From positions 1 through 46,346 of IMG/VR virus record IMGVR_UViG_3300025626_000038: DNA of 46,346 nt, one strand, 5' to 3'. The position numbers and the translations under genes were made by a program. Positions 10,244 to 39,333 of the stretch are shown here, one piece after another; the first letter of the stretch is position 1; each line of letters opens with the position of its first letter. The stretch is from a virus. Below the pieces are notes generated by a model. The model was not told the origin of the DNA, searched no databases, and saw only the letters and a list, made by a program, of their open reading frames with translations.

Positions 10244-10254
10244 TTTCAAAAAAC

Positions 10255-10262
10255 GATAAATA
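10255..10262 (+). promoter_or_regulatory. Late promoter box GATAAATA
   Basis: Exact NATAAATA match followed by C, 11 bases after the preceding stop and 117 bases before the next ATG. Confidence 0.8.
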
Positions 10263-10379
10263 CTATTAATGCAGTACAGCGACCATTGTATTGCACTATC
10301 AAACTGTGGTTAACCAGCAAAGAGTCGTGAGACTGAGAATTCGGCTAGAGGGACAGGATCCCCGTATTGAGGAGAAGAG
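10263..10379 (+). other. Long 5' leader of the 10380 gene
   Basis: A 117-base untranslated leader between the late box and the ATG. It contains no ORF of note. A GGGA...TCCC pairing lies shortly before the GAGGAG ribosome-binding site. It is longer than most other leaders in the window. Confidence 0.4.
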
Positions 10380-18656: not shown

Positions 18657-21600
18657 ATGGCTGAATTTAAATTAGGTAGAATTAGATTTATATGGAAAGG
18701 TGCTTGGACAGGCACCACTGTATACTATAAAGATGACATAGTAAAGCATGGTGGCAATACCTTTGTATGTACAATAGGACATACAAGTACAAGTAACTTT
18801 GATACTGACTTCGCTACATATTGGGATAAAGTTTCCGATGGTCAAGAATGGAAAGGCGATTGGACAGACGCTACCGTTTATAAAATAAACGATATTGTAA
18901 AGTACGGTGGTTATTTGTATGTTGCAAACACAGCACACACAGCTAATACATTACTTGAAAACGATCAGTCTAAATGGGATTTATATGCTGAAGGGTTTGA
19001 TTGGAAAAACACATGGGCAACAGGTACTCATTATAAAGTAAACGATATTGCAAAATATAATGGTATAACTTATCTATGTATTACAGCGCATACCAGTGCT
19101 GCATCAGATGCATTAGGTTTAGAAGCAGATCAAGCTAACTGGCAGAAATTTACAGACGGTCTGCAATGGCAGGGCGACTGGGCTATTGATACTAGATATC
19201 GTGTAAACGATGTTGTCAAGTATGGCGGACAACTTTATGTTGTTAATACAGGTCACACTAGTGCTGCAACAGACACATTAGGACTAGAAGCAGATCAGGC
19301 TAAGTTTGATTATATGCACAAAGGCATCGAGTACAAAGGAACGTATGCTGTCGGTACACGCTATAAAGTAAACGATGTTGTTAAATCAAGTGGCGGCCTT
19401 TGGATATGTGTAACTCCGTACACTGGTCGAGACAGAATTAGTCAAGACCAAGCAAATTGGGCAGAATTTGTAGAAGGTTTAGAATTTGAAGATAGCTGGA
19501 ACCCGACAACAAATTATGAAACAGGCGACATTGTAACCTACGGAGGCTACTCGTATGTTGCTATTACAAATAATGTAGGATTGCGTCCTATTGACAACGA
19601 CACTGATTGGGATCTATTTAATACAGGGTTTCGTTTCGTTGGCGATTGGGGCGACGATAGCTCATCACAAGATTACCTTATAGGCGATGTAATACGTCAC
19701 AGTGGATTTACTTATGTAGCTATAGCTGATAGCAACAATCAAGAACCGCCTAATGCAACTTATTGGGAAAAACTTAATGAAGGATTTAAGTGGAAAAACA
19801 CTTGGTCAGATGCAACCGAATACGATCTAGGCGATGTTGTTAGTTATAACAGTAACTCATATGTTGCTGTTGCAAAACACACATCAGACGAAACAGTTGT
19901 CCAAAACAGACCAGACCAAGACACAGATGGATCTGAATGGAATCTAATGGCCGGCGGGCCTGAAAACAATGTAATGACTACAGATGGTGATTTAGTTTAC
20001 TATAGTGGTGCAGGTCCAGCAAGATTACCAGTTGGACAACTTGGACAAATTTTACGTGTAAATTCTGCAGGTGATGCTCCTGAATGGGGTTTTTATGGTG
20101 CTATTAACAATGTTGTGTATGTTGATGTAAACGGAACAGATGGCGCAGCACCTAGCTTCGGCACAACAATTGATAGACCGTTTAAAACTATTAAACATGC
20201 TGCTTACAATATTGAAAATGGATATATGCGAGCTAATGCACGTAAGTTAATTGAATTAAATGCTGCATTTATACAAGATGAAACTGTAGAGTGGATTGAT
20301 GCGCAAGTAATAGCAAACGCAGGAACACCATTTACTAATTCTTTCACTTATGACAAAGCAGCATGGAGAGTTTATTTTGGACGACTAATAACTGCATTAT
20401 TGTATGATTTAGGACACAGCGGCAACGAAGAATCTCGTAAACTAACACTAGCAATTTTTAATGCAGGCGATATCACAGGCAAAACAGCTGAGTTTGTTGC
20501 GGCAACAGAATACGCAGAAACAGTTATAGATGCAATTATTAGTAATGTTGCTCCAGTAGCAACATTCGGCGCATTGACAAGACATACTGATTCAACACTT
20601 ACAGAAGAAGCAGATGCCCAAGGCATTATTAATAATCTTATAGACATACTTACAGCCGCAGTAACAGCAGGAGTAGATACAAATGTTCCTGCAGAAGTAC
20701 AACCACAAAATACTATTTTTGTAAAAACTGGACAGTTTCTTGAAGTGTGTCCGATTGTAATTCCAAAAAATACAGCACTTGTCGGCGACGAACTGCGTTC
20801 TACTAAAATTAGTCCAGCAGGTGGACTAGTAGCGGGCTCGGACGTAGCATATAGCTTAGACGGCATATCTAGATTACAAGCAATTATAAGCGATGCTGTA
20901 ACAGCGCCGGGCAATATTACTAAAACTACAGGCAATGCATTAGACCCCGTTACAACCCACGTAGTTGGATCAGCTGCTGCTGGCACTGCTGCTGCTGGAA
21001 TTGTGCAAGATATATATGATCATATTGATTTTGAAATTAATGCTACAGGAACTAAACCGACCTTAGCAGGAACAATGACTCCGTTAACTTCAACTGATTA
21101 CACTTATGCAATTGAATCACTCGAAGCAAATAGAGAATTTTTAAAAGCAGAAGTATTAGCATACATTGCAGATACATATCCTTCTTATGTTTATAATGAA
21201 ACTGCATGTGCTAGAGATGTCGATCGTTACATTAGTGCTACGCAATATGATTTAATTAATACCGGAAATTACAAAGCAATTAGAGCTGCACAAGCATATG
21301 TTGCATCTGTTCAAGGATCATTAGATAAAGATATGCTTTATCTACGCAATGGCGCTGGATTTAGAAATTGTACTGTTACCGGGTTAACAGGTTCACTAGG
21401 TGCAGCTAATGCAAATGGCACAAAACGCCCAACAGCAGGCGCTTACGTAAGTCTAGATCCTGGTTTCGGCACAACAGATGAACATGCATGGATTACCAAT
21501 AAATCACCATACATACAAAACGTAACTACGTTTGGTACTGGGTGTGTTGGTCTAAAAGTAGACGGCGACTTACACGCTGGCGGCAACGATAGTATTGTTG

Positions 21601-23393
21601 CTAATGACTTTACACAGATTCTAAGTGATGGCATCGGCGTTTGGGTTACTAACTTAGGACGTTCAGAATTAGTTAGTGTGTTCTCGTATTACGGACACAT
21701 TGGTTACTTATCAGAGAACGGCGGAAAAATTCGAGCAACAAACGGCAACTCCTCATACGGTGACTTTGGTACTGTCGCTGAAGGCATTGATAGCACAGAA
21801 ACTGCTATAACCGCAACAGTAAATAATTATTCGTCTGAAGCAAATGTTTCTACTGTATTAACTGACGGTAATAATATTCTTACTCTTGAATATGCAAATG
21901 CTGGTGTTAACTATACATCAGGTGCCACAACCATAACTCCAACAGGCGAAGGCTTTGGAGCAACAGTAGGAACAGTTAATGTTAACAATGGCGGTGTATA
22001 CGAAGTTAGACTAACTGATCCGTCAAATAACTTTGGTGGAGATGGATTTATAGACGGAACTAATACTGCCCAAATTGGTACTTCGACACAGATTACATTA
22101 AGTAACACTGATATTAGATCAAGTGCTCAATATGTAGGAATGGCTATATGGATCGTAAGTGGTACAGGCGCAGGACAATATGGTTACATTGATACTTACA
22201 ATAGTGGTACAAAAATTGCAACTGTTAAAAAACAAAGCGACGACTCTGCAGGATGGGATCATGTTACAGGTGTTGCAATAGCAAGTGTTCTAGATGACAC
22301 TACTGAATATTTAATTGAACCAAGAGTAACATTCAGCGGCGGCGGCGTAACTGCTTATGCTGATATTGCTAAAGCTCGTGCTAGAGTAAGCGACGAAAAG
22401 ATTGTAGAAATTCGTATTTGGGATTCAGGCAATGGATACACAAGTGCGCCTACTATGACAGTTACTGATCCAAACAACACTGTAGAAGTTCCGCACTTAG
22501 TTAGAATTGGTGACGGAGTATTAGGTCAGCCAACGTGGACAAATAGAGGCACAAACTTTACAACAGCACAGGCTGAAGTATCTGGTGATGGATATGCAGA
22601 CTTATACCAACCTGGAACAAATATAGTTGTAGCAGGATTGACAGCTATTCCGCAAGCTGGCTCAAATGTCGAAATAGCCGGAATAACAGGGACATTCTTT
22701 AAACTTGTTACTGTTAGAGATTTAGCAGGAACTGGACCGTATACTGCAAGACTACAAATATCTCCAGCAATTAGTATTACTGATGCTCCGGAACATAATG
22801 AAGGTGTAGAAATGCGCATTCGTTACAGTCAAGTACGCTTAACAGGACACGATTTCCTAGATATCGGTACTGGTAACTTTGCAAATACCAACTATCCAGG
22901 TGTTCCTTTGATAGATCCAGATCCGACCAAAGAAACAAATGACTTAGGTGGCGGTAGAGTATTCTATACAAGTACTGACCAAGACGGTAACTTTAGAGTT
23001 GGTGAGTTGTTTAGTATTGAACAAGCAACTGGTATTGCTACTCTTGATGCTGATGCTTTTAATATTAGCGGCTTGCAAGAACTGCAACTAGGTGCAATTA
23101 GTTTAGGTGGCACCAACGCCACAATTACAGAGTTTAGCGTAGATGGTACATTTACTGCTAATAGTGATAATATTGTCCCAACACAAAAAGCAATTAAAAC
23201 TTATATACAGTCACAAATCGGCGGTGGTGCAGGCGAGTTGAATGTTAACCAACTTACTGCTGGTAATATAAGAATTAATAGTGATACTATTACTAACACA
23301 CTTGGCGAAACGATAAATATAACTACTAGAACTAACTTTACAGGCGGTATCAAAGGTGATCCTGTTGCAATGAATATGTTCTTATCAAATTAA
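18657..23393 (+). CDS. Giant fibre/adhesin: eight CBM5/12-like repeats, beta-helix with helical inserts
   Basis: A 1578-residue paralogue of the 14823 product and the largest of the four beta-helix proteins. Residues about 5-433 hold eight CBM5/12-like repeats. The beta-helix starts at VVYVDVNGTDGAAPSFG (about 483). It is interrupted by two helical inserts of about 160 residues (about 523-684 and 724-889) that share an F(I/L)..E...WI/YI...Y....RD/W pattern. It resumes at DMLYLRNGAGF and NKSPYIQNVTTFGTGCVGLK. The C-terminus carries YSQVRLTGHDFLDIG, RVFYTSTDQDGNFRVGELF and VPTQKAIKTYIQSQI. It has its own late promoter. The two giant genes follow one another and most likely build related or co-assembling fibres. 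Substrate unknown. Confidence 0.85.
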   Translation: MAEFKLGRIRFIWKGAWTGTTVYYKDDIVKHGGNTFVCTIGHTSTSNFDTDFATYWDKVSDGQEWKGDWTDATVYKINDIVKYGGYLYVANTAHTANTLLENDQSKWDLYAEGFDWKNTWATGTHYKVNDIAKYNGITYLCITAHTSAASDALGLEADQANWQKFTDGLQWQGDWAIDTRYRVNDVVKYGGQLYVVNTGHTSAATDTLGLEADQAKFDYMHKGIEYKGTYAVGTRYKVNDVVKSSGGLWICVTPYTGRDRISQDQANWAEFVEGLEFEDSWNPTTNYETGDIVTYGGYSYVAITNNVGLRPIDNDTDWDLFNTGFRFVGDWGDDSSSQDYLIGDVIRHSGFTYVAIADSNNQEPPNATYWEKLNEGFKWKNTWSDATEYDLGDVVSYNSNSYVAVAKHTSDETVVQNRPDQDTDGSEWNLMAGGPENNVMTTDGDLVYYSGAGPARLPVGQLGQILRVNSAGDAPEWGFYGAINNVVYVDVNGTDGAAPSFGTTIDRPFKTIKHAAYNIENGYMRANARKLIELNAAFIQDETVEWIDAQVIANAGTPFTNSFTYDKAAWRVYFGRLITALLYDLGHSGNEESRKLTLAIFNAGDITGKTAEFVAATEYAETVIDAIISNVAPVATFGALTRHTDSTLTEEADAQGIINNLIDILTAAVTAGVDTNVPAEVQPQNTIFVKTGQFLEVCPIVIPKNTALVGDELRSTKISPAGGLVAGSDVAYSLDGISRLQAIISDAVTAPGNITKTTGNALDPVTTHVVGSAAAGTAAAGIVQDIYDHIDFEINATGTKPTLAGTMTPLTSTDYTYAIESLEANREFLKAEVLAYIADTYPSYVYNETACARDVDRYISATQYDLINTGNYKAIRAAQAYVASVQGSLDKDMLYLRNGAGFRNCTVTGLTGSLGAANANGTKRPTAGAYVSLDPGFGTTDEHAWITNKSPYIQNVTTFGTGCVGLKVDGDLHAGGNDSIVANDFTQILSDGIGVWVTNLGRSELVSVFSYYGHIGYLSENGGKIRATNGNSSYGDFGTVAEGIDSTETAITATVNNYSSEANVSTVLTDGNNILTLEYANAGVNYTSGATTITPTGEGFGATVGTVNVNNGGVYEVRLTDPSNNFGGDGFIDGTNTAQIGTSTQITLSNTDIRSSAQYVGMAIWIVSGTGAGQYGYIDTYNSGTKIATVKKQSDDSAGWDHVTGVAIASVLDDTTEYLIEPRVTFSGGGVTAYADIAKARARVSDEKIVEIRIWDSGNGYTSAPTMTVTDPNNTVEVPHLVRIGDGVLGQPTWTNRGTNFTTAQAEVSGDGYADLYQPGTNIVVAGLTAIPQAGSNVEIAGITGTFFKLVTVRDLAGTGPYTARLQISPAISITDAPEHNEGVEMRIRYSQVRLTGHDFLDIGTGNFANTNYPGVPLIDPDPTKETNDLGGGRVFYTSTDQDGNFRVGELFSIEQATGIATLDADAFNISGLQELQLGAISLGGTNATITEFSVDGTFTANSDNIVPTQKAIKTYIQSQIGGGAGELNVNQLTAGNIRINSDTITNTLGETINITTRTNFTGGIKGDPVAMNMFLSN
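18672..19957 (+). repeat. Eight CBM5/12-like coding repeats (second array)
   Basis: A second set of eight in-frame repeats matching those of the upstream paralogue unit by unit, so the array predates the gene duplication. Confidence 0.85.
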
Positions 23394-23408: not shown

Positions 23409-23726
23409 ATGGCTACAGGAAAACTAGGCGCAAACGATTTAAGCGCAACAACATTAACTACAGTATATACCTGCCCCGCGGAAACGTATGCTGTAGTGTC
23501 GATAAATATATGCAATAGAGGATCGGCAACAACCGGTATCCGTATTGCAATTGCAGATGCGGCAACGCCTGGCGCAGCAGAATACATAGAGTATGATACA
23601 GAAGTATTTTCAAAAAATGTATTAGAGCGCACTGGTATAGTACTAGCAGCTACACAGCGTATTGTTGTTTATTCAACGCAAGCTAGTGTTAGTGCTGTAG
23701 TAGTAGGTATCGAAACCGCAGCATAA
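23409..23726 (+). CDS. Small beta-sandwich virion protein, copy 3
   Basis: A 105-residue beta-rich protein. Its core TVYTCPAETYAVVSINICNRG (about 18-38) resembles TVPASKSYAITNILVCNNG of the 5640 product, including a Pro-Ala turn and a Cys-Asn pair at the end of the second strand. It begins 15 bases after the 1578-residue fibre gene, so here too the small protein follows a large one. The stop overlaps the next late box. Probably a virion component; function unknown. Confidence 0.6.
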   Translation: MATGKLGANDLSATTLTTVYTCPAETYAVVSINICNRGSATTGIRIAIADAATPGAAEYIEYDTEVFSKNVLERTGIVLAATQRIVVYSTQASVSAVVVGIETAA

Positions 23727-23750: not shown

Positions 23751-24044
23751 ATGGGAAGATATACAAGCAGCGCAACAGGTACAGCGTCAGATATGACAGC
23801 TGCATTTACAGCAACAAACAGTGTCGAAAATGCAGATGGATTTCTTACATCCTATGTAGCAAACAACATAACTTATTCAAGTATTACATATGTTGACGAC
23901 AATGGAGTTAATGCTGATTATGGCGGCGCATACAAAAAAGTAGGTAGTTGGACTGAAACTAATAACCTTACTAACGAAACACAAACAATTACAGTAAACT
24001 ATGATGCTACGACCGGCGAAGTATCAAGTCTAAGCATAGTATAA
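23751..24044 (+). CDS. Small protein of unknown function, probable virion component
   Basis: Not recognised. The 97-residue protein is Thr/Ala/Asn-rich, with predicted strands toward the end (SSITYVDDNG, KKVGSWTETNNL, TITVNYDATTGEVSSL). It has no cysteine, signal peptide or membrane segment. It has its own late promoter and opens the transcription unit that contains the two cysteine-rich adhesin-like genes, with only 12 bases to the next gene. The opening MGR is shared with the 4171 product, but the rest is not clearly related. Confidence 0.55.
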   Translation: MGRYTSSATGTASDMTAAFTATNSVENADGFLTSYVANNITYSSITYVDDNGVNADYGGAYKKVGSWTETNNLTNETQTITVNYDATTGEVSSLSIV

Positions 24045-24056: not shown

Positions 24057-25046
24057 GTGGCAGATCCAGCAGTATATAACACAGTATTAAAAGAAACAAA
24101 AGCAATCCAAACTACTACGCAAGAAAAAGGCTTAGCCCTAGCGATAGCAGGACTTGCAGAGGAACCAGGCAATCCAGCTAATTGGAGCCTGATGCCGTTG
24201 TTAAGTAACCCTGCCGGGTGTTTGTGTGTTGTTAACACATCGACTAGATTCGGCTGTGGTGTAGGCTGCACATGGACAGTTCCGAGTGGAACTTCAAAGG
24301 TTCAATTCCAGTTATGGGGTCCAGGTGCATCGACTATGAACGGCATGTGTTGTGCAGGTTCGCCAACAGGCGCAACAGGAGCTTTTGCAACAGTAATTAT
24401 CGACGCTAATCCAGGAGATAGTTATACATTATGTGCAGGTTGTGCAGCATGTTGTTACGGTTATTGTAGTCAAGGATATGCTGTTTGTGGAAGTAGTACT
24501 TATGTAAACGGACCTGGGCTTAGTGGTCTATGTGCAGAAAGTGGCCACTCTAGAATATCATGCGGTATGAAAGATTTACATGGTGGCAGTTATGGCCAAT
24601 GTAGATTTAGAGGCGTAGGTTCTAGCGAACAGTCTGGTCCTTGTATTTGTGAAGGCGGCACTTGGTACTGCTTTGACAATAGTTGTGCATCATGCGGAGT
24701 AATACCATTCACAGGATCAGCAGATAATACCTTTGGAGGCACAGCTACATCAGGAACAGTTTACGGACTACCAGCAACATGGGGCGGCGGATGTTTTGAC
24801 ACTAACCACTACGGATATATGCAAGCACCTCCGGTGATTGGTCCATGTCACACAGCACAGCCAAATTCATGCTGCTGTTATGGATTTAGTAGTGGTAGTT
24901 GCTGTGGTGGTTGTCGCTGTAGAGCACAAGACGGCCACAGATGCTATCCTGGCGCAGGTGGAACGTACACTCACATGATGGGTGGATCAATGTACTGGTC
25001 AGGCGATTATGGTCGAGCAGGAATGGTAAGAGTAACTTGGTGTTAA
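24057..25046 (+). CDS. Cysteine-rich Gly-rich adhesin-like protein, copy 1
   Basis: A 329-residue protein with 31 cysteines. The start is GTG with CAGGAGA eight bases upstream. Residues 1-54 form a helical, cysteine-free attachment-like segment. From 55 on the chain is Gly/Ser/Cys-rich. WTVPSGTSKVQFQLWGPGAS (about 73-92) matches the entry strand of Gly-rich tail-fibre domains (WTVPAGV..V.V.LWGAGG). A CAGCAACC cluster lies at 126-133, and the end GDYGRAGMVRVTWC is typical of these domains. Cysteines replace many expected glycines and occur as CC, CCC and CxC. It probably forms a disulphide-stapled or metal-binding receptor-binding tip. That inference rests on composition and on its position at the end of the fibre block. 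No signal peptide. Confidence 0.7.
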   Translation: MADPAVYNTVLKETKAIQTTTQEKGLALAIAGLAEEPGNPANWSLMPLLSNPAGCLCVVNTSTRFGCGVGCTWTVPSGTSKVQFQLWGPGASTMNGMCCAGSPTGATGAFATVIIDANPGDSYTLCAGCAACCYGYCSQGYAVCGSSTYVNGPGLSGLCAESGHSRISCGMKDLHGGSYGQCRFRGVGSSEQSGPCICEGGTWYCFDNSCASCGVIPFTGSADNTFGGTATSGTVYGLPATWGGGCFDTNHYGYMQAPPVIGPCHTAQPNSCCCYGFSSGSCCGGCRCRAQDGHRCYPGAGGTYTHMMGGSMYWSGDYGRAGMVRVTWC

Positions 25047-25060
25047 AAGGAAAATAAATT

Positions 25061-25699
25061 ATGGAAAAAACATTTACAGTAAACGTTCCAGACGATCTTT
25101 GGGTAGATAGCTGGACAGAAAATAAAACAACAGACTACACATACAATGGTCCATCGACTATTAATGTGCTAGTAAGTTTAACAGACGACTTTCCTATTGT
25201 TAGGTGGTCCGAAGACGACATTACAGTTGATGATGAAGATAAGCAACTAGTAGTAACTATTGATGCAGATACTGATACTGCTATTGCACATGCAATAGTA
25301 AATGCAGGTGCAGAGCATGAGTATACATATACTACTATTACAAATCATGATGATTCGACGCATGAAGAAATTAATAATCCTACAATAAATGATATTTACG
25401 AAGTGGTATATACACCAGCAAATGGATTTGAATTAGAACAGATTATTAAACAATCAGAAACTATGAATGAAAGAACAGCCAAAGAAAGATTAGCATATGT
25501 TGTAAAATACGACGAAGCTTACGATTTCGATGATGCAACTCAAACAGTTATTGATACATTTAAAACTAATATAGATAATTATTTAACAACAATGTCTACA
25601 GTTTATCCTTGGAGATATGTAACAATTGATGCAACTGTAATTCCAAAGATTCCTGCGTCATTAGTAGCAACGTTTAATACTTTGCCTGATATATCTTAA
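25061..25699 (+). CDS. Unknown protein between the cysteine-rich paralogues
   Basis: Not recognised. The 212-residue acidic protein has a beta-rich N-terminal half (TFTVNVPDDLWVDSW, YNGPSTINVLVSL) with many Asp/Glu/Thr. The C-terminal half has a helix-prone segment (about 140-165, ETMNERTAKERLAYVVKYDEA) and a YPWRYVTID stretch. It contains no cysteine, in sharp contrast to both neighbours, and is spaced 14 and 10 bases from them. Co-expression suggests a partner, an assembly chaperone or a shared linker for the cysteine-rich proteins. That is inference from context. Confidence 0.6.
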   Translation: MEKTFTVNVPDDLWVDSWTENKTTDYTYNGPSTINVLVSLTDDFPIVRWSEDDITVDDEDKQLVVTIDADTDTAIAHAIVNAGAEHEYTYTTITNHDDSTHEEINNPTINDIYEVVYTPANGFELEQIIKQSETMNERTAKERLAYVVKYDEAYDFDDATQTVIDTFKTNIDNYLTTMSTVYPWRYVTIDATVIPKIPASLVATFNTLPDIS

Positions 25700-25709
25700 G
25701 GAGATTTAA

Positions 25710-26780
25710 ATGAGTGACGTAATATTATATGCAGCAATTAAAGAAAGAGATCGGCTAAAAGCTGCTGACGGTGACGGTGCAGTTGCTATTGATTATAGTA
25801 AACCGACTCCTACTGGATATCCTTACCAAACAGGTGCCGCCGATGGAGCTGGCGAATTTAATACGTGTCCACAAATTGTTAAGGACTGGGTTACTAATCT
25901 AACTCCTTTAGTTTGTCCAGCACAAACATATGGCTTTAAAGTCTGTGGCAGTTGTTGGAGATGTGGCAACAATTGTAACCATAGTATTTGTTCAGGAGTA
26001 TCGAATATTCAAGTGCAAATGTGGGGCCCAGGTGGCGGCACCAGTGGTAACTGCTGCTGTGGCGGATCACCATTTGGTCCAAGCGGCGCATATATGGTAA
26101 TGCAGTTTTGCGTAAACCAAGGCGAAACATATTGTTTTTGCGCAGGTTGTGCATATTGCTGCTGGGGCGAGCAAACTACACCAGGAATTTGCGGAAACCC
26201 AACTTGGTTTAATTCAACATCCGGTATAAATGCATGTGCAGACAGTGGAATTAGTTGTTTCTGTTACTGGAACGAAGATTTAAAATCTAACACTTCGACC
26301 TGCGGACACAGAATACCAGATCCAGATCAAGCAGGCGGCACATGTAGTGCAAACAGATGTAGCGGCTGGAACTTCTGTTACGACGATTACTGGGATGAAT
26401 CTTTAGCATGTCACGCATTTGCTAGTAGAACAACATTCAGATTAAATACTGGAGCAAGCGACGGCAGAACTATTACAAAATATGGGTTAAATGGCCTTTG
26501 GCCTGCAATATGTGTCGGCGGCTCAGGCAGCTGTTTACACAATAGTTGTACTATATCAACTCCGGTATTCGGATTTGAAGCTTGCACTTGTGCTGATGCT
26601 TTCAGTGGCAGTCAGAATAATGCGCAGGGTTACGGCGGTTGTTATCGTAGCGGCGCACAAGGTTATCTTAGAATACCAGGCGCCGGCGGCTGGCGCAATT
26701 ATACTTGTGGTGGCTACAATGGATGTCAAGGTGACTCAGGACGATTTGGCATGGTATGTGTAAGCTGGGAGTGTAACTAA
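25710..26780 (+). CDS. Cysteine-rich Gly-rich adhesin-like protein, copy 2
   Basis: A 356-residue paralogue of the 24057 product with 35 cysteines (about one residue in ten). The N-terminal helix (MSDVILYAAIKERDRLKAA) is cysteine-free. The central entry strand is IQVQMWGPGGGTSGNCCCGG. The conserved cluster CFCAGCAYCCWG corresponds to CAGCAACC of copy 1. The C-terminal GDSGRFGMVCVSWEC matches the end of copy 1. Between these landmarks the two copies differ strongly, as expected for a receptor-binding surface under diversifying selection. It is the last gene before the inverted repeat and terminator at 26792-26897. Cytoplasmic folding with so many free thiols would be a problem unless metal is bound or disulphides form after lysis. 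Confidence 0.7.
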   Translation: MSDVILYAAIKERDRLKAADGDGAVAIDYSKPTPTGYPYQTGAADGAGEFNTCPQIVKDWVTNLTPLVCPAQTYGFKVCGSCWRCGNNCNHSICSGVSNIQVQMWGPGGGTSGNCCCGGSPFGPSGAYMVMQFCVNQGETYCFCAGCAYCCWGEQTTPGICGNPTWFNSTSGINACADSGISCFCYWNEDLKSNTSTCGHRIPDPDQAGGTCSANRCSGWNFCYDDYWDESLACHAFASRTTFRLNTGASDGRTITKYGLNGLWPAICVGGSGSCLHNSCTISTPVFGFEACTCADAFSGSQNNAQGYGGCYRSGAQGYLRIPGAGGWRNYTCGGYNGCQGDSGRFGMVCVSWECN

Positions 26781-26971: not shown

Positions 26972-27979
26972 ATGAAGAAGGCATTTTTTATAAACGGCGG
27001 CGCTGGCCGAGTTTTATGCAGCATACCTGCATTAGAGTATTACAAAGAAAACACTGATCCAGATGTTGTAATAGTATCAGAAGCATGGCATGAATTATTC
27101 CTTTCTTCAAAATTAAGAAATAATATTTGGCCAGTAGGCAGTAAGGAATTATTTAAAACTGTTCTAAAAGATAGAGAAATTATTAGTCCAGAGCCTTACA
27201 GACTAAATGCTTATTTTAATCAACGTGTTAATTTAATACAGGCGTTTGATATGCTTATTAATGATGTTGACGAAGCTGTAGAAAGTAAGCCTATAAATTT
27301 AGATCTCGGAAAAGCCGATCAAATTTATGGGTATAATTTAGTAGGCCAAGTTAAGCAACAAATGAAAAAAGAAAAGGTTATTGTCTTTCAACCATTTGGC
27401 AGCGGTGTTAAAATAGATGGCAATTTTGTATTTGATGAAAGTGGCCGCAGTTTTGAATTATCAGATGTGTTTAGAATAGTTGACGAACTATCTAAGGATT
27501 ATGCAGTAATATTAATGACAAATCTCAAAATTCCAACCGATAGGCCTATGGGTGCTGCTATACCAGATAATGCAAGCTTGCTACAGTGGACGGGAATAGT
27601 TAATGCAGCAGACTATTTTCTAGGTTGCGATAGCATGGGACAACACTATGCCCACGCATTAGGCAAACCGGCAACAGTGGTTATAGGATCAACTTTTCCA
27701 GAAAACATAAGTTATCCAGGAAATAAAGACTTTACAATTATTGATAACGGAAAAGAAAATAGAGTATACGTGCCGTATCGAGTTACTCAAGATCCTGCAA
27801 GAGAAAGACACAACGAAGATAATATGATTTTAAACGAGGAAAATTATAAAAAAATTATGAAAAGTATCGCAGATAAAATCGGAAAACCAGAAAGTTCAAA
27901 TAAGAAATTGCCGTCGGCAAATAATAAACCTTCGACCATATTTGATAAACCAAATAAAAAACTAATAGGAGAAAAATAA
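26972..27979 (+). CDS. GT9/heptosyltransferase-like glycosyltransferase
   Basis: Probable glycosyltransferase of the GT-B fold. The N-terminal FINGGAGRVLCSIPALEYY fits the first Rossmann strand and loop of GT9 heptosyltransferases (normally GD.....P....L). The C-terminal domain has VIVFQPFGSG, then LLQWTGIVNAADYFLGCDSM, and HYAHALGKPATVVIGST, matching the GT9 donor-binding part (AD..IG.DSG..H.A.ALGKP). The start follows AGGAG closely. The C-terminal 40 residues are Lys/Ser/Asn-rich and disordered. It ends two bases before the carbamoyltransferase. Together with the ADP-heptose genes at 38-42 kb it could transfer heptose, but donor and acceptor are unproven. Confidence 0.75.
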   Translation: MKKAFFINGGAGRVLCSIPALEYYKENTDPDVVIVSEAWHELFLSSKLRNNIWPVGSKELFKTVLKDREIISPEPYRLNAYFNQRVNLIQAFDMLINDVDEAVESKPINLDLGKADQIYGYNLVGQVKQQMKKEKVIVFQPFGSGVKIDGNFVFDESGRSFELSDVFRIVDELSKDYAVILMTNLKIPTDRPMGAAIPDNASLLQWTGIVNAADYFLGCDSMGQHYAHALGKPATVVIGSTFPENISYPGNKDFTIIDNGKENRVYVPYRVTQDPARERHNEDNMILNEENYKKIMKSIADKIGKPESSNKKLPSANNKPSTIFDKPNKKLIGEK

Positions 27980-27981
27980 TT

Positions 27982-29781
27982 ATGTCATCAGGATATATTT
28001 TAGGTATTTCAAGAGGCCATAATGCAGGCGTTTGCTTACTTAAAGATGGTAAAATTGTATTTGCAAGCGAAGAAGAACGCTTTACAAGACACAAGTATGA
28101 TGGCGGCCCTTTAGCAACAATGTTGAAAGTAAAAGAATATACTGATAAAATTGATGCACTAGTGGTGTGTCACACAACGTCTATTAATGATGGACCAAAA
28201 ATAGAGTATACGGGCGATAATCTTTATTCAGGTTTAGCTAGAAAAATGGGATTAATTGATAGAAAAGGTGATATACATGATCATCCACAATGTATCGATG
28301 TTTCCCATTTACACCATAAAGTACATGCTGCTTGTGCATTTTATAGGAGTGGCTTTGACGAAGCTGTAGCAGTAGTTATTGATGGCGCTGGATCTGCAAC
28401 TTCAGGACAAACTCAAGATGGTAATGTGTTACTTTGGGAAGTTGAGAGTATTTACGATTGTTCTTATCCTGACAATATTAAAACTCTATACAAACATTTT
28501 GGATGTAGAGATCCAATTGTTACAGCCATTAATACCAATACAGATGGAGCACAGTTTGGCGAAGAAGGCAATACATTTACTTCTGTAGTTTCAGGACACG
28601 CCGGCATAGTAAAAGTATACGAAGCAGTAACACAATACTGCGGCTTCCAAGCAATCGAAGCAGGTAAAACAATGGGACTATTTCCATACGGTAAAGAAAA
28701 TAGTAATATACCCAAACTGTTTTTAAACAGTACTAAAATTCCACTAGCTGATAGAAGTCTTTTCGTTCCAACATATCCAAATGCTGCAATAGTAAATCAT
28801 AAAAATTATGAAGAATTGTCAGATAGTCCTGTTGGAGATGACCATACTTGGACAGAGTACCAAAATCGAAGAGACTTAGCATATGCATGTCAACAAGAAA
28901 CACAAGAACAAGCATTAGATATAATTTTGTCTGCTACAAAATTATCAGGTAAAAATAAAGTAGTACTATCTGGCGGCTACGGATTAAACTGTGTAGCAAA
29001 CTACTGGTATCTTAATAGGCTTAATGAAGAAGGTATCGAATTATTTGTTGAGCCTATATCAAATGATGGCGGAACAGCCATTGGCGCTGCTTTACTATAT
29101 TATTATGCTACTAGTCAATCTTTAGAATCACAGCCTAGAGAAATTTATCTAGGTCCTCAGTATAATTATAAAGATGAAGATATTACTAAATTGGCAGAAG
29201 AATATAATGCTATTGTTACTGATGCAACAGACGATGACGTTATCGAATTAATGACTAATAAGAATATTGTAGCAATGTTTCAAGGTCGTGCTGAAAACGG
29301 TCCACGTGCATTAGGAAATCGTTCGTTGATGTTCGATCCGACCTTTGAAGATGGCAAAGATTTCGTTAATGAAATTAAACATCGAGAATACTTCCGTCCG
29401 TTTGCAGGATCAATACTTGCCGAAGACGCACACGAATGGTTTGATTTACGGGGAATGGAAGACAGTCCACATATGATGTATGCTGTTAATTGTCAACCAG
29501 GCATTGCTGAAAAAATACCTAGTATTATTCATGTGGACGGTACATGTCGCATTCAGACAGTTACTGAAGAAGAAAATCCTCTTTACTACCGAGTGATTAA
29601 GGCATTTAAAGAAAAGACTGGAGTTCCGATTATCTTTAATACTAGTTTTAATCTAGGCGGAGAACCTCTTGTAGAAACATTAGAAGATGCACTTTGGACA
29701 CTGAGCGAAAGTAAGATTGAATATTTGTATTTGCCAGAATACGGAAAGCTTCTTACAGTCGGAAATTGGAAAGTTGCTTAA
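27982..29781 (+). CDS. NodU/TobZ-type carbamoyltransferase
   Basis: Full-length O-carbamoyltransferase (599 aa, usual for the family) expected to transfer carbamoyl from carbamoyl phosphate, via carbamoyl-adenylate, to a sugar or other hydroxyl. The N-terminal Kae1-like domain has ILGISRGHNAGVCLL (6-20), SEEERFTRHKYDGG (29-42), the metal-binding HHKVHA (H111, H112, H115) and VVIDGAGS (131-138). The C-terminal YrdC-like domain has LSGGYGLNCVAN, GRAENGPRALGNRS, REYFRPFAGSIL and IIFNTSFNLGGEPLV. Genes of this family occur in many marine T4-like phages. It lies between a glycosyltransferase and a methyltransferase, suggesting a glycan-decorating cassette. The acceptor is unknown. Confidence 0.92.
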   Translation: MSSGYILGISRGHNAGVCLLKDGKIVFASEEERFTRHKYDGGPLATMLKVKEYTDKIDALVVCHTTSINDGPKIEYTGDNLYSGLARKMGLIDRKGDIHDHPQCIDVSHLHHKVHAACAFYRSGFDEAVAVVIDGAGSATSGQTQDGNVLLWEVESIYDCSYPDNIKTLYKHFGCRDPIVTAINTNTDGAQFGEEGNTFTSVVSGHAGIVKVYEAVTQYCGFQAIEAGKTMGLFPYGKENSNIPKLFLNSTKIPLADRSLFVPTYPNAAIVNHKNYEELSDSPVGDDHTWTEYQNRRDLAYACQQETQEQALDIILSATKLSGKNKVVLSGGYGLNCVANYWYLNRLNEEGIELFVEPISNDGGTAIGAALLYYYATSQSLESQPREIYLGPQYNYKDEDITKLAEEYNAIVTDATDDDVIELMTNKNIVAMFQGRAENGPRALGNRSLMFDPTFEDGKDFVNEIKHREYFRPFAGSILAEDAHEWFDLRGMEDSPHMMYAVNCQPGIAEKIPSIIHVDGTCRIQTVTEEENPLYYRVIKAFKEKTGVPIIFNTSFNLGGEPLVETLEDALWTLSESKIEYLYLPEYGKLLTVGNWKVA

Positions 29782-30415
29782 TACAGACATTGTTGAAGTT
29801 AGACTAGATAAATTTTTAGTCTACTCATCGAATAAATTAGATGGATACGGTTATCAGACAGCAGCTGATGCCGTATCCTGTATTAATCATTTTTCAAATG
29901 GCAGAATATATAATCATTGTTTAGAATGGTGTTCTGGCCCTGGATATTTAGGTTTTGGAACATTAAGCCAAGGCTTAACAGAACGTCTTACATTATTAGA
30001 CATACACGAGCCAAATAAATTTGTAGTAGAAAAAACTATAGATAAAAATAATCTTAATAATAATGTAAATTTTGTATTGTCTAATAATTTTAAAAGTCAT
30101 CCTACAAACATAGCATATGATCTAATAATTGGAAATCCGCCGCATTTTAGCTTTACTCCGTCATTTGGAAATATCGACCCTAACGAGCATCGAAAATATA
30201 AAGATCAAAACTGGAACATACATCAAGATTTTTTTAATACTGTTAGTAGCTATATAACTGATGATGCTGATATTGTACTAATGGAAAATACAAAAGGTAG
30301 TAATCCAGAAACATTTGCGAAGATGATCGAAGATAACGGATTAAGAATTGAAAATTATTGTTTGAGTGTAACTTATCCTAATGATATCTGGTATTTACAT
30401 ATTAAAAAATCTTAA
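29774..30415 (+). CDS. Small class I SAM-dependent methyltransferase
   Basis: Probable methyltransferase of about 213 residues. Motif I is EWCSGPGYLGFGTL (SAM-binding loop) and motif IV is DLIIGNPPH, the (N/D)PP(Y/F/H) type found in N-methyltransferases of the HemK/PrmC and adenine-N6 groups. The frame is open from 29717, but only TTG codons are available. The TTG at 29774 gives an 8-base overlap with the carbamoyltransferase and has GGAAA upstream, so it is preferred. No target-recognition domain is seen, so it could methylate a protein glutamine, a nucleic acid or a small molecule. The stop overlaps the convergent SGNH gene by four bases. Confidence 0.75.
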   Translation: MLNTDIVEVRLDKFLVYSSNKLDGYGYQTAADAVSCINHFSNGRIYNHCLEWCSGPGYLGFGTLSQGLTERLTLLDIHEPNKFVVEKTIDKNNLNNNVNFVLSNNFKSHPTNIAYDLIIGNPPHFSFTPSFGNIDPNEHRKYKDQNWNIHQDFFNTVSSYITDDADIVLMENTKGSNPETFAKMIEDNGLRIENYCLSVTYPNDIWYLHIKKS

Positions 30416-31122
30416 TTTATAAACTCTTGTTCAAATCCTGTGGTTAAATCTAACACTTGATTATGTTTAATAGTCTGATATAGCTTTTGAGAAAGTATAA
30501 GATGATTGCACTCGGAGATATGGCCTTCCCTAGGATCTTTCCCGTTAATTTTTCCCTTCCAGTTCAACCAAGATTGCATATTTTTGCCTTTTACTTCGTT
30601 AATACACGGATCGAGTAAACTACCTTTTACTGCAATATTATTATTTAAAAAGAATCCTTCATTTTCAAATCCAGGAAGTATTAGTAAATTTAAATTATTT
30701 TGTTCTTTTAAAAAATTTAATCCATATAATAGCCACTGAAATCTTATAGAATCCTGAGGATTATCTGTTAGATGTTTGATGTATAAATTAATTGCTTTAG
30801 ATTGGTCTTTTGTTACATAATTGTCGAGGGGACCCATGTGAATATTACCTACGCCTTCATTATCTGGAAAAAACCATTGACGATTTATTTGAGTAGTAAT
30901 AAAAATAATAGTGTCTGTTTCTGGATTTATATTCGAAGAATTATCTATAAATTGGTAATATATCCATTCGTTAGCAACACCGTCTTCGCATATATTATAA
31001 AAATTTTCATGGCCTAGTTTTTCTGTAAGACTCCACATCCAGTGCCAGTCTTTAATTTCGTCACCTGATTGGTGAAATGTTCCGTAGCTATCGCCAAAAA
31101 TCCAAAGTTTTCCATTTTTCAT
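30412..31122 (-). CDS. SGNH/GDSL-like hydrolase
   Basis: Likely esterase- or acetylhydrolase-like protein. The N-terminus (from the ATG at 31122) reads MKNGKLWIFGDSYGTFH, where GDSY is the block I nucleophile motif. ICEDGVANEW could be the Gly block, and the C-terminal REGHISECNHLILSQKLY supplies a possible catalytic His in the block V position. An upstream ATG at 31149 would add nine residues, but it overlaps the + strand late box and has no Shine-Dalgarno; the ATG at 31122 also lacks a clear one. It is the only - strand gene in this part of the window, convergent with the methyltransferase. Possible roles are deacetylation of a surface glycan or lipid, or a fibre-linked esterase. Confidence 0.6.
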   Translation of the reverse strand: MKNGKLWIFGDSYGTFHQSGDEIKDWHWMWSLTEKLGHENFYNICEDGVANEWIYYQFIDNSSNINPETDTIIFITTQINRQWFFPDNEGVGNIHMGPLDNYVTKDQSKAINLYIKHLTDNPQDSIRFQWLLYGLNFLKEQNNLNLLILPGFENEGFFLNNNIAVKGSLLDPCINEVKGKNMQSWLNWKGKINGKDPREGHISECNHLILSQKLYQTIKHNQVLDLTTGFEQEFIN

Positions 31123-31146
31123 AATAATACTTATGCTTGGTAAGAG

Positions 31147-31154
31147 CATAAATA
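31147..31154 (+). promoter_or_regulatory. Late promoter box CATAAATA
   Basis: NATAAATA match followed by C, 21 bases before the 31176 ATG, at the head of the third structural block. Confidence 0.8.
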
Positions 31155-35500: not shown

Positions 35501-38331
35501 GCATTTCTACAAATTTTGATTCTGCTATATCAGGAGATATTATAAGACTTATAAGTACATTAATTGTGACAGAGGCTACTAGTAGTACAATTTCTAAAAA
35601 TGCAGTAATTACATATGGCGCTTTGGCAACATTAGAAATTACATTAAATAATGCACATGGTCTTGTCCCAGGAGACACATTTATTGTAACATCTGCATCA
35701 GACGACGGAGTTAATAATCATGCATTATCAGCAGGATCGTTCTTTGTTACAGATATACCTGCTGTAAACAAATTAAGATATCAAGCAAGAGCAGTTGGAA
35801 CAATTGATGCAACAACATCTAGTATATTAGGCACATTATATTCAAGACCAGATAGTTTCTTTGTACACAGACCGTATGACGGCGGAGTACAGTTAGGAAC
35901 AGGCGGTCCGCAACACGGTGCGCAAGCAATACGTCAAAGTAAAAAGTATATTCGTTATCAGTCAGGTAAAGGTATTATGTATACTACTGGTGCATTGTTT
36001 GCACCAAGTTACGATCTGCGTAGTTTGACAGCAGGCGGTGTAGAAGTAGGATCACTAATTACAGTTGAAACAGACGACAATGATCACGGAGTACAAGTTG
36101 GCGGAGTTGTTAGAATTCTTGGAGTAGAAACTCCCGGATACAACAGTGGCCCTGGAACAGTAGTACCGCCAGTATTTGATTATACTGTTGAAAGTGTACT
36201 AGACGAACGTAGATTTACAGTTCGAGCACAGCGTAGACTAGGAGCAACTGAAGCAGTATTAGGGTTTGGTTCACAAATGAGTGTTGTTAGTTGGCATGGT
36301 GCTACAGTGCGTTCTGGTATCTTTGATGATCAAAATGGGATTTTCTGGGAGTTTGACGGAACGCAAATTAGTGTAGCACAACGTACAGGTACAAGACAAC
36401 TTGCAGGAACAATTGCCCTAAGCGTGGATGATAACCTAGTAGCAGGCACAAATACTAGATTCCAAGATCAATTAAAAGCCGGAGATAGAATTATTATCAA
36501 AGGTATGACACATGTTGTAAGTCACGTTAACAGTCAAACTGAAATTACAGTTACACCAGACTTCCGCGGAGTTGTAAACATTGCCGGCGCTAAGGCTAAC
36601 TTAATTGTTGACAAGAAAACAAAACAAAAAGACTTTAATCTAGATAAATTGGACGGCACCGGACCAAGTGGTTACGATATTGACATTGCTAAGATGCAGA
36701 TGATCGGCATTCAATACAGTTGGTACGGTGCAGGTTTCATTGACTTTATGCTACGTGGTGCAGATGGTAACTTTGTATTTGCACACAGAATGCGTAACTC
36801 AAACGTAAACACAGAAGCGTTTATGCGTTCAGGTAACTTGCCTGTGCGTTATGAAGTTAGTAATGAAGGACCGAGTGGCAAACTTGCAGCAGCACTCGAT
36901 GCAAGTCAAGTTACAATACCATTAACAGATAGTAGTTTCTTCCCGGACTATGGCACAGTTTATGTTGACAACGAAATTATGACGTTTACCGGTAACAATA
37001 AAACTACTAATACGTTAACAGGTGTAACTCGTGGTGCAACATTTACAAATTTCCAAGCAGGAGCAACACGCAGTTATACAGCAGGTATAGCAACAACGCA
37101 CACTGACAGAACCGGCGTTGTATTAATATCTCAAACAATTACACCATTGATTAGTCACTGGGGTAGTGCGTTTATTACAGATGGTATGTTTGATGATGAT
37201 AGAGGTTATATTTTCTCCTACGCAGAAAATCAAGTAAACGTTAGTACTACTAAACAAAGTGCTTTCTTAATTAGATTGGCACCAAGTGTATCAAATGCAC
37301 TTATTGGTGATTTAGGTGAAAGAGAACTACTAAACAGAGCGCAGTTACTACTACAAGGAATTGAAGTTACATCAGATGGCACTGACGGAACTAATGATAT
37401 TACGGGTGGCATTGTTGTTGAAGGAATTCTTAATCCGCAAAACTATCCATTAAATCCAGCAGACATTGGCTGGACAGGACTAAGTGGTGTTGCACAAGGT
37501 GGACAGCCAAGTTTTGCACAAATTGCTTCAGGTGGTAGTGTTAACTGGTCAACAGGTGATGCTGCAACAACTGCAACAGCTACAGCTCAAAGTGCAATTA
37601 GTGCAGATATTAATTCAGGCATATACAACAGTCCAAATAATAGAGATTACGTATACATTGATACAGCAGATTATCAAACTACATTCGGAACTACATCTAG
37701 GGCGCCAGTTTTAGGTAAAACTATTACAGGTTCTAACATTGATGCAAATACTACTATCACTGATGTGTATATCAGTGGCAGTTATGGTTATTTTAGATTA
37801 AGTCGAAGAACCCAAGGTCAAACAAGTGCCGGCACTGGAAGTGCGTTTTCAGTCTTAACTGCTAATGAAGCGTTGGTTAACAGAAACTTTGCATATTTTG
37901 ATAAAGCAAGTTTTGAAATATCAGGTGCAGGAATCGGTACAGAACTATCCAACGGCGGCAGTGTTACATTCCCTGCAAACACATTGGTTAACAGTGTAAA
38001 CTTGTTAGACTTCGGCGGCACAGAGTACTATGAAGTGCAGTTTAATAATGCGTTTACTGGAACACTCCCAGTGGGCACAGGTACAGTAGAATTTACGTTT
38101 GTACAACCACCGTATGCACAGCCTGGAGAAACAGTATTTTCATTCATTGCTACACCTGGAGAACGTGCTAGTTTAGACTTATCACAGTTGAAAGAACTTA
38201 CTAATACACCGTTAGGTGGTAGAGGAACATATCCAAATGGTCCAGATGTACTAGCACTTAACGTATATAAAGTTGGCGGCGCAGCAACTGATGCAAATAT
38301 TATTCTAAGATGGGGCGAAGCACAAGCCTAA
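32512..38331 (+). CDS. Giant (1939 aa) virion structural protein with beta repeats
   Basis: The largest protein of the window. N-terminus: short basic lead, then a helical module (about 30-130) with SFVQKEATQWIQDQI and CERDIGYNIDAYLKDLRYGG. The middle (about 570-1015) has five repeats of 80-95 residues, consensus G..A.F.V....Y...I...G..Y..GD.I.V.G..LGG.SP.NDLTITV. From about 1130 on are segments characteristic of large tail or baseplate proteins of marine T4-like phages (HRPYDGGVQLGTGGPQHGAQ, QSKKYIRYQSGKGIMYTTGA, VSWHGATVRSGIFDDQNG, MQMIGIQYSWYGAGFIDFML). The C-terminus has YPNGPDVLALNVYKVGG. It starts three bases after the fibre gene with a weak ribosome-binding site. It is probably a tail or baseplate-associated structural protein. 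The exact T4 counterpart, if any, is not clear. Confidence 0.8.
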   Translation: MAKTQVKNYVFKPGVGASDNLYPAAYGLLSSNKSFVQKEATQWIQDQIDAANAGFVGYTYNSEKCERDIGYNIDAYLKDLRYGGNENTYNVVKYYWDQDVAQIDGDRAVEIATYNFIKTLIQTYVLANTAYSASNTEVSQTIDNTKTAEAGTSTIIGDLVQATSDVINTGISAFPTFVATGVGTIKIQGRYDLDQLLLITNVTSNDIIYNFSAPATGGLVSLKTDQISKDADFTKYLETTDAITTITLNFDTSNHSSTDELQIFVEKLENGKSVVTTRPFDFGTDAIERLRVAQPQSMLDADFEYGLQPTKWAAISTMRGYPSVYEVPGTDTPVLSVVTDASAGTDGIGQSLITVTTVGPHNIPVGTPITIKALEDSVPGAARAEGSFVIVEAPTPTTFTFYAKSKVGTVNPTTLSTTYTQLRQAAFYTGANIGEPTVSVVSNGSAGTLAAELDIAAGSTIIPYDGPSPEVGAPLINAGIPEGSQVTSIIDTSAGGGEYLTPVITANINPSDLSFDVDDATGIVPNLALDRGDGTAVYVTSIVGTTVNVSGAFTTGFTSNKVTYTGISPSPVVSSGTGAIFNISSAGGTYTLDGFSNQGDNYQVGDILLVTGNNLGGISPTNDLTITVLTLDSDTGIGTVSLSGDAFDGTTSVTGVTGNTQGGVGLDAFFDITYVNNVYTADITSPDTSTGYAVGDIIVVDGSLIDPTAGGPANDLYLTVATIGAGGSIVSVTASGTAPDTQLQFNQPTYSTSGSGVGALFSVSTDGTTYSVSIDPINQGTNFLPGDTITVLGTDLGGATPANDLTITIDNVGGAGEITAQTATGTAYNGSSSINIAGTNQIGTGATFDVSLAGGTYTVTLTDGGNNYGAGQTIIIPAGLALPGTSPTNDITITISTVDAIATGTVATFTDAGTAYNGTGSFTVTGNIQPISGTNFTLSLNRENGTYSNITVDLGSINYAVGNTFRINGPTLDGVSPLHDIDISVTSVDSETGEITGISTNFDSAISGDIIRLISTLIVTEATSSTISKNAVITYGALATLEITLNNAHGLVPGDTFIVTSASDDGVNNHALSAGSFFVTDIPAVNKLRYQARAVGTIDATTSSILGTLYSRPDSFFVHRPYDGGVQLGTGGPQHGAQAIRQSKKYIRYQSGKGIMYTTGALFAPSYDLRSLTAGGVEVGSLITVETDDNDHGVQVGGVVRILGVETPGYNSGPGTVVPPVFDYTVESVLDERRFTVRAQRRLGATEAVLGFGSQMSVVSWHGATVRSGIFDDQNGIFWEFDGTQISVAQRTGTRQLAGTIALSVDDNLVAGTNTRFQDQLKAGDRIIIKGMTHVVSHVNSQTEITVTPDFRGVVNIAGAKANLIVDKKTKQKDFNLDKLDGTGPSGYDIDIAKMQMIGIQYSWYGAGFIDFMLRGADGNFVFAHRMRNSNVNTEAFMRSGNLPVRYEVSNEGPSGKLAAALDASQVTIPLTDSSFFPDYGTVYVDNEIMTFTGNNKTTNTLTGVTRGATFTNFQAGATRSYTAGIATTHTDRTGVVLISQTITPLISHWGSAFITDGMFDDDRGYIFSYAENQVNVSTTKQSAFLIRLAPSVSNALIGDLGERELLNRAQLLLQGIEVTSDGTDGTNDITGGIVVEGILNPQNYPLNPADIGWTGLSGVAQGGQPSFAQIASGGSVNWSTGDAATTATATAQSAISADINSGIYNSPNNRDYVYIDTADYQTTFGTTSRAPVLGKTITGSNIDANTTITDVYISGSYGYFRLSRRTQGQTSAGTGSAFSVLTANEALVNRNFAYFDKASFEISGAGIGTELSNGGSVTFPANTLVNSVNLLDFGGTEYYEVQFNNAFTGTLPVGTGTVEFTFVQPPYAQPGETVFSFIATPGERASLDLSQLKELTNTPLGGRGTYPNGPDVLALNVYKVGGAATDANIILRWGEAQA
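34225..35550 (+). repeat. Five beta-domain coding repeats inside the 1939-aa gene
   Basis: Five degenerate in-frame repeats of about 80-95 codons, each with an (S/T)P.(N/H)D(L/I).I.V motif after a GD.I.V.G strand. They look like stacked small beta domains forming a stalk. Confidence 0.75.
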
Positions 38332-38342
38332 AGGGCTTGTGC
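38320..38342. terminator. Hairpin over the overlapping convergent stop codons
   Basis: GCACAAGCC (38320-38328) pairs perfectly with GGCTTGTGC (38334-38342) around a 5-base loop that contains the stop of the + strand gene. The - strand stop is also inside the hairpin. Neither side has a clear T-tract, so it is a candidate bidirectional transcript-end structure rather than a classical terminator. Confidence 0.6.
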
Positions 38343-38948
38343 AAACTCCCAAAGATTATCAAACACAAGTGTTTGTTTTTTAATCTGTTTGTATGCGTGT
38401 TTGTTTAATTGTTTTTCGGTTTCTAGGCCGTACCCAGTTCTAACCAGTATAGGTCTAGCACCTATTTTGAAGGCGGCTTTTAGGTCACTAAGTTTGTCAC
38501 CAACAAAAAAACCTTTTGAAAATTTAATATACGGATGTTCTTTCTCACATCGCTTAAACATTCCGATATTTGGTTTAGCATACATGTCATTCTTACGACT
38601 ACTGGCACTATAGTAGATGGCATCAATACTAGGACAGCCTGCTTGTCCCAGTAACTCGAGCATTCTATTATTTACTGCATCTACATCAGCTGGAGTCATC
38701 AAGCCTTTTTCGATTCCTCCTTGATTGGTAATAACTGCTATCCTATGACCTTTAGACCTCAATAATGCAACAGCTTCTAAACTACTCGGTATAGGATCAA
38801 ACATCATAGGAGTGGTAACATATGTTCCAAGATCGACATTCAATACACCATCTCGATCCAGGCCTATTACCGGTTTGTTGTAAATGCTACTATCATTAAT
38901 TTGATTAGTATTGTTTACAAACGCATTGTCTAATACACTCCTAGCCAT
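38328..38948 (-). CDS. gmhB: GmhB-like heptose-bisphosphate phosphatase (HAD family)
   Basis: Expected to remove the 7-phosphate from D-glycero-D-manno-heptose 1,7-bisphosphate, the step between the two HldE reactions. HAD motifs: VIGLDRDGVLN (D31 and D33), VITNQGGIEKG (T74), KPNIGM (K125) and GFFVGDKLSDL (D151, D155). The start at 38948 (MARSV) has AAAGGA upstream and overlaps the cupin stop by eight bases; an ATG at 38984 would overlap far more. The protein lacks the Cys/His zinc loop found in E. coli GmhB between motifs II and III (here YYSASSRKNDMY), so it belongs to a zinc-free variant or to a relative such as a histidinol-phosphatase-type HAD. Location next to hldD and hldE favours the heptose role. 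Confidence 0.82.
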   Translation of the reverse strand: MARSVLDNAFVNNTNQINDSSIYNKPVIGLDRDGVLNVDLGTYVTTPMMFDPIPSSLEAVALLRSKGHRIAVITNQGGIEKGLMTPADVDAVNNRMLELLGQAGCPSIDAIYYSASSRKNDMYAKPNIGMFKRCEKEHPYIKFSKGFFVGDKLSDLKAAFKIGARPILVRTGYGLETEKQLNKHAYKQIKKQTLVFDNLWEFAQAL

Positions 38949-39333
38949 TTTTTTCCTTTGACCGTTGACTGTCACCTGGAGCAACTCTGTAATTGTCCTC
39001 TACACTATCAGCTGTGCTAACTTCGGTAATGCTAGAACTGCCTTGTAGACAAATCAACCTATGTGGCTGTAGCGGAGGATTATGCCAAACATCACCCTCA
39101 TTTAATTCTTTTTCATATAGCCCAGCAGTATCAGTGTCAATCCATTGTACTTTGAATTTACCTGTGTTTACAAACCATGTTTCGTCCTTTTCTCGGTGAA
39201 AGTGCATGCTGAATTGGGCGCCTTCCTTTTCAAAAAACATAATTTTACCACAATACTTATCGTTAGTGGCCCAAATAAGTTCGTATCCCCAACCTTTGGG
39301 TACTACGCCTTGTAATCTAGTTGGTTCTTGCAT
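38941..39333 (-). CDS. Cupin-domain protein (sugar isomerase/epimerase-like)
   Basis: A 130-residue single-domain cupin resembling the C-terminal part of mannose-6-phosphate isomerase/ManC proteins. It opens with KGWGYELIWATNDKYCGK. The first cupin motif is FSMHFHREKDETWFV (H44, H46, E51 as likely metal ligands), followed by LNEGDVWHNPPLQPHRL with H91 as the fourth ligand, and ITEVSTAD near the end. AGAGGA precedes the start. The gene overlaps hldD by 17 bases and the phosphatase by 8, so it belongs tightly to the heptose operon. It might supply or control a heptose or sugar-phosphate step, for instance in place of the absent GmhA isomerase. That role is a guess. Confidence 0.75.
   Translation of the reverse strand: MQEPTRLQGVVPKGWGYELIWATNDKYCGKIMFFEKEGAQFSMHFHREKDETWFVNTGKFKVQWIDTDTAGLYEKELNEGDVWHNPPLQPHRLICLQGSSSITEVSTADSVEDNYRVAPGDSQRSKEKNG

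Follow-up and report, generated by a model that had tools for sequence, protein, structure and literature searches.

The closest described counterparts of the proteins discussed here are glycine-rich tips of phage tail fibres. The Pam3 fibre gp24 consists of helix, TNF-like and glycine-rich domains and is folded by the chaperone gp25; its distal domain contains 39% glycine, with neighbouring glycine motifs about 5 Å apart, and cysteine and disulphides go unmentioned in its description (PMC9608196). A related design occurs in gp38 of Salmonella phage S16 (PDB 6F45), a glycine-rich host-recognition tip on a T4-like long tail fibre (PMC9608196). Away from the locus treated below, Prochlorococcus phage P-SSM2 encodes an ordinary protein of the Gly_rich_2 family (PF21722), with 28% glycine and two cysteines. 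Phages put their tail tips together in the reducing cytoplasm of the host, and few cysteines are normally present in them; we know of no cysteine enrichment in S16 gp38.

The window analyzed here, meaning the whole 46,346-nucleotide stretch of the virus record IMGVR_UViG_3300025626_000038, encodes structural proteins of the T4-like type (head protease, major head protein, baseplate wedge subunits, tail fibres and tail sheath-related proteins). A comparison of its DNA with a phage collection returned no close match, and its gene order is that of P-SSM2, where the tail fibre PSSM2_301 is followed by two small genes, PSSM2_304, _305, _306, _307 and the carbamoyltransferase _308. We assign the window, as a fragment, to a P-SSM2-like cyanomyovirus (Kyanoviridae). 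The succession of tail fibre, cysteine-rich genes, chaperone and carbamoyltransferase is conserved among relatives, and the corresponding features of the window, including the two cysteine-rich proteins A and B, are collected in Table 1.

Table 1. Positions of the tail-tip module, its neighbours and selected cysteine sites in the window
Feature	Position	Strand	Remarks
Large tail fibre, seven CBM_5_12-like repeats	18657..23393	+	upstream in the conserved order
Small tail-fibre-like protein (phrog_11338 / phrog_693)	23409..23726	+	conserved upstream neighbour
Small gene, function unassigned	23751..24044	+	at the position of PSSM2_303
Protein A, cysteine-rich glycine-domain tail tip (predicted)	24057..25046	+	329 aa, 31 Cys, GTG start
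Cys67 codon of A	24255..24257	+	co-absent with Cys132; candidate disulphide partner
Cys99 codon of A	24351..24353	+	candidate partner of Cys159, weaker link
CAGCAACC motif, A residues 126-133, contains Cys132	24432..24455	+	Cys replaces a Gly motif of ordinary glycine-rich domains
Cys159 codon of A	24531..24533	+	Cys in 101/105 family members and in the cultured subfamilies
Gene between A and B, Cys-free, phrog_9740-like	25061..25699	+	212 aa; probable tail-fibre assembly chaperone
Protein B, cysteine-rich glycine-domain tail tip (predicted)	25710..26780	+	356 aa, 35 Cys, ATG start
CAGCAYCC, B residues 144-151	26139..26162	+	same motif as in A
phrog_8954 protein (weak glycosyltransferase family 9 match)	26972..27979	+	conserved downstream neighbour
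Nol-like carbamoyltransferase	27982..29781	+	conserved downstream neighbour

The upstream tail fibre is 1578 aa long, and its seven carbohydrate-binding repeats lie toward the N-terminal part. Around the tail module (27982-31149 and 38328-41928) are found carbamoyltransferase, methyltransferase-like, HAD phosphatase, cupin, nucleotide-sugar epimerase and heptose kinase/cytidylyltransferase-like genes, which probably serve sugar synthesis or modification. Matches to the T4 late promoter-like sequence TATAAATA occur in the window at 16703, 17027 and 32355 on the plus strand and at 15084 on the minus strand, with none immediately upstream of the cysteine-rich pair.

Proteins A and B contain 31 and 35 cysteines in 329 and 356 residues, and both open reading frames and their counts are exactly as the initial annotation had described them. 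Cysteine thus makes up 9-10% of both proteins, compared with 0.53% (76/14,263) in the other 34 open reading frames of the window that were considered, an excess with a binomial P of 2e-28 for A and 2e-32 for B; the other structural proteins have mostly 0-0.6%. The two sequences are 31% identical overall. The cluster CAGCA(A/Y)CC said to be common to them is present as CAGCAACC in A and CAGCAYCC in B, while the entry strand described as LWGPG occurs in A (QLWGPG) and reads QMWGPG in B. At the C-termini, GDYGRAGMVRVTWC in A and GDSGRFGMVCVSWECN in B, the pattern GD.GR.GMV.V.W.C was correctly recognized, except that B has one additional residue. Metallothioneins are a different kind of protein, being small, with 20-33% cysteine and few aromatic residues, whereas the family of these much longer proteins is rich in tyrosine and tryptophan.

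Comparison of A with its relative in locus L007 gave a dN/dS of 0.09, and cysteine is retained at 30 of its 31 positions, at 11 of which another cysteine codon is used, which indicates that the cysteines are under purifying selection. Codon or mutation bias was ruled out as their source, as they are retained across synonymous TGT/TGC changes with dN/dS values mostly of 0.09-0.35. The GTG start of A is also common to its close relatives.

The stretch 24057-26780 also contains a cysteine-free gene that the initial annotation did not mention and that is part of the module. The product of this middle gene matches phrog_9740 weakly (E 7e-4); among its 32 orthologues, 30 give a match to the same family (best 2.5e-8). 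In the cultured phages S-SSM7 and Sf-FS3, the gene downstream of the cysteine-rich triplet scores above the Phage_tail_APC cut-off and matches phrog_9740 with E values of 2e-90 and 2e-40, respectively. An adjacent gene for a tail-fibre assembly chaperone, as next to the Pam3 fibre gene, is present in relatives, and the window gene is linked to it through phrog_9740, a link that is itself weak; a profile search of the PDB gave nothing convincing on its identity. By analogy with Pam3 gp24/gp25, the middle gene probably encodes a tail-fibre chaperone, and the presence of this chaperone family distinguishes the locus from the S16 gp38 system.

The structure prediction that had been suggested for A and B yielded monomer AlphaFold models with mean pLDDT values of 89.9 and 82.4 and a glycine-rich type of fold. 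Protein A is predicted to begin with a helix (residues 4-35), followed by a β-sandwich and a glycine/cysteine-rich part. Among solved structures, its best match is the Pam3 fibre (gp24/gp25, PDB 7YFW/7YPX; E 5e-6, TM-scores 0.35/0.44, rmsd 13.6), followed by the Bxb1 tail tip (4e-5) and the ALK/LTK glycine-rich domains (1e-3), and B gave the same set; because the TM-scores of the top matches are modest (0.29-0.49) and the rmsd values large, these matches speak for the type of fold and not for its detail. S16 gp38 was absent among the 50 best structural matches listed for A and B. Among viral models, the first match of A is the P-SSM2 protein Q58M49 (TM 0.83), after which entries named "Glycine-rich domain-containing protein" dominate, and Foldseek assigned a probability of 1.00 to the matches with viral glycine-rich domain proteins. 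Protein A may share with Pam3 gp24 the order of N-terminal helix, TNF-like part and glycine-rich distal part, and next to both lies a chaperone gene, a probable one in the window. Unlike the Pam3 fibre, the locus encodes two paralogous tips of high cysteine content, and their glycine contents (A 17%, B 15%) are below those of the Pam3 distal domain and of the ordinary P-SSM2 protein.

Pfam searches with A and B gave no match at E ≤ 1, so that both fall short of the curated Gly_rich_2 cut-off of 24.3 bits, and a profile search of solved-structure sequences with the family was likewise empty; the family is therefore placed only through the fold search and distant relatives. Five of 23 close relatives match Gly_rich_2 weakly (best E 0.005), and two proteins of cultured phages, SXBG_00224 of S-CAM1 and S-SSM7_114, exceed the cut-off with 40.4 and 24.9 bits. 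Furthermore, the frame W-[TC]-VP ... WG.GG ... GxxGxVRITY is common to the family and to Gly_rich_2, from whose members A and B differ in having cysteine in place of glycine motifs. In a side-by-side comparison, CAGCAxCC, the CCC after WGxGGG, and xFCAxGG occupy the positions of glycine runs in the ordinary domain. In this family, many lattice glycines are cysteines. The glycine-rich tail-fibre scaffold claimed by the initial annotation, of the tip (adhesin) type, is supported by the fold matches, the relatives that pass the Gly_rich_2 cut-off, the position after the tail fibres and the neighbouring chaperone family. Since glycine-rich domains occur in other virus proteins too, A and B might instead be other virion or accessory proteins with this fold, such as capsid or baseplate decorations, but we consider this improbable in view of their location after the tail fibres, the match to a solved fibre and the adjoining tail-fibre chaperone family.

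By sequence similarity, A and B belong to the unannotated family phrog_35878/phrog_4205. Both match phrog_35878 over most of their length (E 5e-48 and 6e-36), as do all 23 members of alignment A1. PSSM2_304 and PSSM2_306, with 36 cysteines each and both annotated as "hypothetical protein", are direct homologues with the same cysteine content and gene order. This also applies to the tandem genes of S-CAM1, S-CAM3 and S-SSM7; these cultured phages and Sf-FS3 each have three such homologues in a row (8-11.6% cysteine) at the same locus position, all called hypothetical. The P-SSM2-like phages have two copies with the chaperone between them, and the Synechococcus phages three copies followed by the chaperone. 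In IMG/VR, 73 loci matched the aligned profile, and from the loci fetched 131 distinct homologues were obtained, each with 6-13% cysteine; the seeds were cysteine-rich and membership was confirmed by similarity, so cysteine-poor relatives would be under-sampled in this set. Of 100 loci, a count in which the same contig is often represented by more than one cut, 88 have two copies, and most of the others end at a contig edge. Nearly all copy pairs flank one cysteine-poor gene of about 210-255 aa. In three loci (L045, L049 and L050) the cysteine-rich copies almost abut, with no chaperone gene between them, and those of L049 and L050 are longer (469 and 489 aa). Near the cysteine-rich genes of cultured cyanophages lie genes annotated as cysteine dioxygenase, 2OG-Fe(II) oxygenase or prolyl 4-hydroxylase (L104:14824-15180, L105:14802-15155, L103:15980-16447, L106:10618-11250). 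In a profile search of prokaryote genomes no cellular relative passed. A search of the open literature found no cysteine-rich cyanophage tips and no virion proteomics of PSSM2_304/306; overlap with PMC3426561 is possible, as the P-SSM2 proteins expressed there are named by accession and not by locus tag, except PSSM2_224.

A second cysteine-rich domain was found at the same site. In locus L009, copy B (9668-10363) keeps the N-terminal anchor MSDVILYAALKENQRLN, but beyond it some 195 aa form another domain; the protein still has 24 cysteines in 232 aa and shows none of the WTVP, WGxG and GDxGRxGMV landmarks. A frameshift origin was ruled out, since no other frame carries a signal of the family. 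Relatives of this tip in L126 and L127 have 23 cysteines, are 57% identical to it and stand beside an ordinary copy A (L126:4995-5708). The single-cell virus AG-345-P14 (L128:5117-5962) encodes, at the same locus, a relative with 26 cysteines in 282 aa and a different N-terminus, and its stretch has no copy of the glycine-rich type. In two phages (L009 and L126), the second tip takes the place of copy B behind the shared anchor, and in the third it has another N-terminus. Each such tip is followed by a similar gene of 122-124 aa, which may encode its chaperone. Cysteine is thus enriched in two tip domains between which no similarity could be detected, and this points to selection on cysteine content at the tip site, although the two domains may have a common ancestry too distant to recognize.

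In the homologues, among which the initial annotation had proposed to seek conserved cysteine spacing, cysteine occupies 14 columns in at least 75% of the 105 aligned members, and C71 is invariant. C67 is missing from 12 of 87 representatives, all of which also lack C132 (Fisher P 3e-12). This joint absence occurs in five lineages and therefore supports a disulphide pair; when the tree is considered, the coincidence is moderate, with three of the five on the same branch for both residues (P 2e-4 before correction for 91 pairs). Columns 59 and 325 co-vary as well (P 2e-8), largely clade by clade, and columns 99 and 159 show a weaker co-occurrence. Pairing of all cysteines was ruled out by the even split of total counts (33 even and 33 odd representatives, with no even-number bias) and by the loss of single cysteines between close relatives. 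The claim of stapled cysteines thus survives in part: some pairing is likely, on the indirect evidence of the C67/C132 co-absence, and complete pairing is not.

Outside the 14 conserved columns, cysteine averages 6.2% (3.0-8.9%) and lies at poorly conserved positions. Together with the balanced even and odd counts and the equally cysteine-rich, unrelated tips at the same locus, this would suit proteins in which most cysteines are free thiols or exchangeable disulphides that act in adsorption, through thiol-disulphide exchange or metal-bridged contact with the host surface; we regard this role as unlikely, and seawater would tend to oxidise thiols that are free. A low probability is likewise given to the proposal that the cysteines of the same glycine-rich tips coordinate a metal (zinc, iron or copper) and do not form disulphides. 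The CxxCxxCC spacing of the conserved motif agrees with such a metal-loaded tip, as does the frequent loss of C67, C129, C132 and C133 as a group, expected of a four-cysteine site. However, L064 and L090 have lost only C67 and C132 of this group and keep C129 and C133, so a pair fits better than a four-ligand site; moreover, histidine is rare (1.4%), and the solved-structure searches gave no match to a metal protein.

The spacing between cysteines shows a slight excess at 3 (ratio 1.22, z 3.8) and at 1 and a deficit at 9, and hence no clear ladder of the three-residue kind expected of polyglycine-II strands. Alpha-carbons joined through a disulphide lie at distances that include about 5 Å, the spacing of the Pam3 glycine motifs; stapling of neighbouring strands is therefore plausible. 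All five complete phages searched encode glutaredoxins, and neither thioredoxin nor DsbA was detected in them; the search for Erv1/ALR gave no match even in control genomes and carries no weight. This enzyme set fits tips that stay reduced inside the host and become oxidised once released; as many T4-like phages encode glutaredoxins, however, finding them here proves nothing.

The explanation that we favour, and hold to be probable rather than settled, is that A and B are two paralogous tail-fibre tip adhesins of a P-SSM2-like cyanomyovirus, folded with the help of a chaperone and partly stapled by disulphides after their synthesis. Each tip would be carried on the virion and bind a receptor, and it would consist, like the Pam3 fibre, of an N-terminal helical anchor and a TNF-like β-sandwich that passes into a lattice of extended strands rich in glycine, with cysteines in place of many lattice glycines. 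The product of the gene between A and B would assist folding. Both proteins would probably be synthesised with free thiols in the reducing host cell, and conserved cysteines of neighbouring strands would then form the staples, with C67-C132 as the best candidates, followed by 59-325 and C99-C159. These bonds would probably form once the host lyses into oxygenated seawater.

A wider and more tentative proposal, which may well prove wrong, is that cysteine-rich tips arose two or more times at this locus of marine T4-like cyanophages, on domains unrelated to each other, because their thiol chemistry is part of what the tips do: they would be synthesised in reduced form in the host and hardened or activated by oxidation when set free into oxygenated seawater, or would contact the host through thiols or bound metal. 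The finding would label unannotated genes in the much-used isolates P-SSM2, S-SSM7 and S-CAM1, and a redox-dependent adsorption step becomes directly testable. Chemical stapling of this sort would be uncommon in a virus that is assembled within a bacterium, and about 10% cysteine in a probable host-recognition tip across many cyanophages would represent a new means of stabilising or tuning adhesins.
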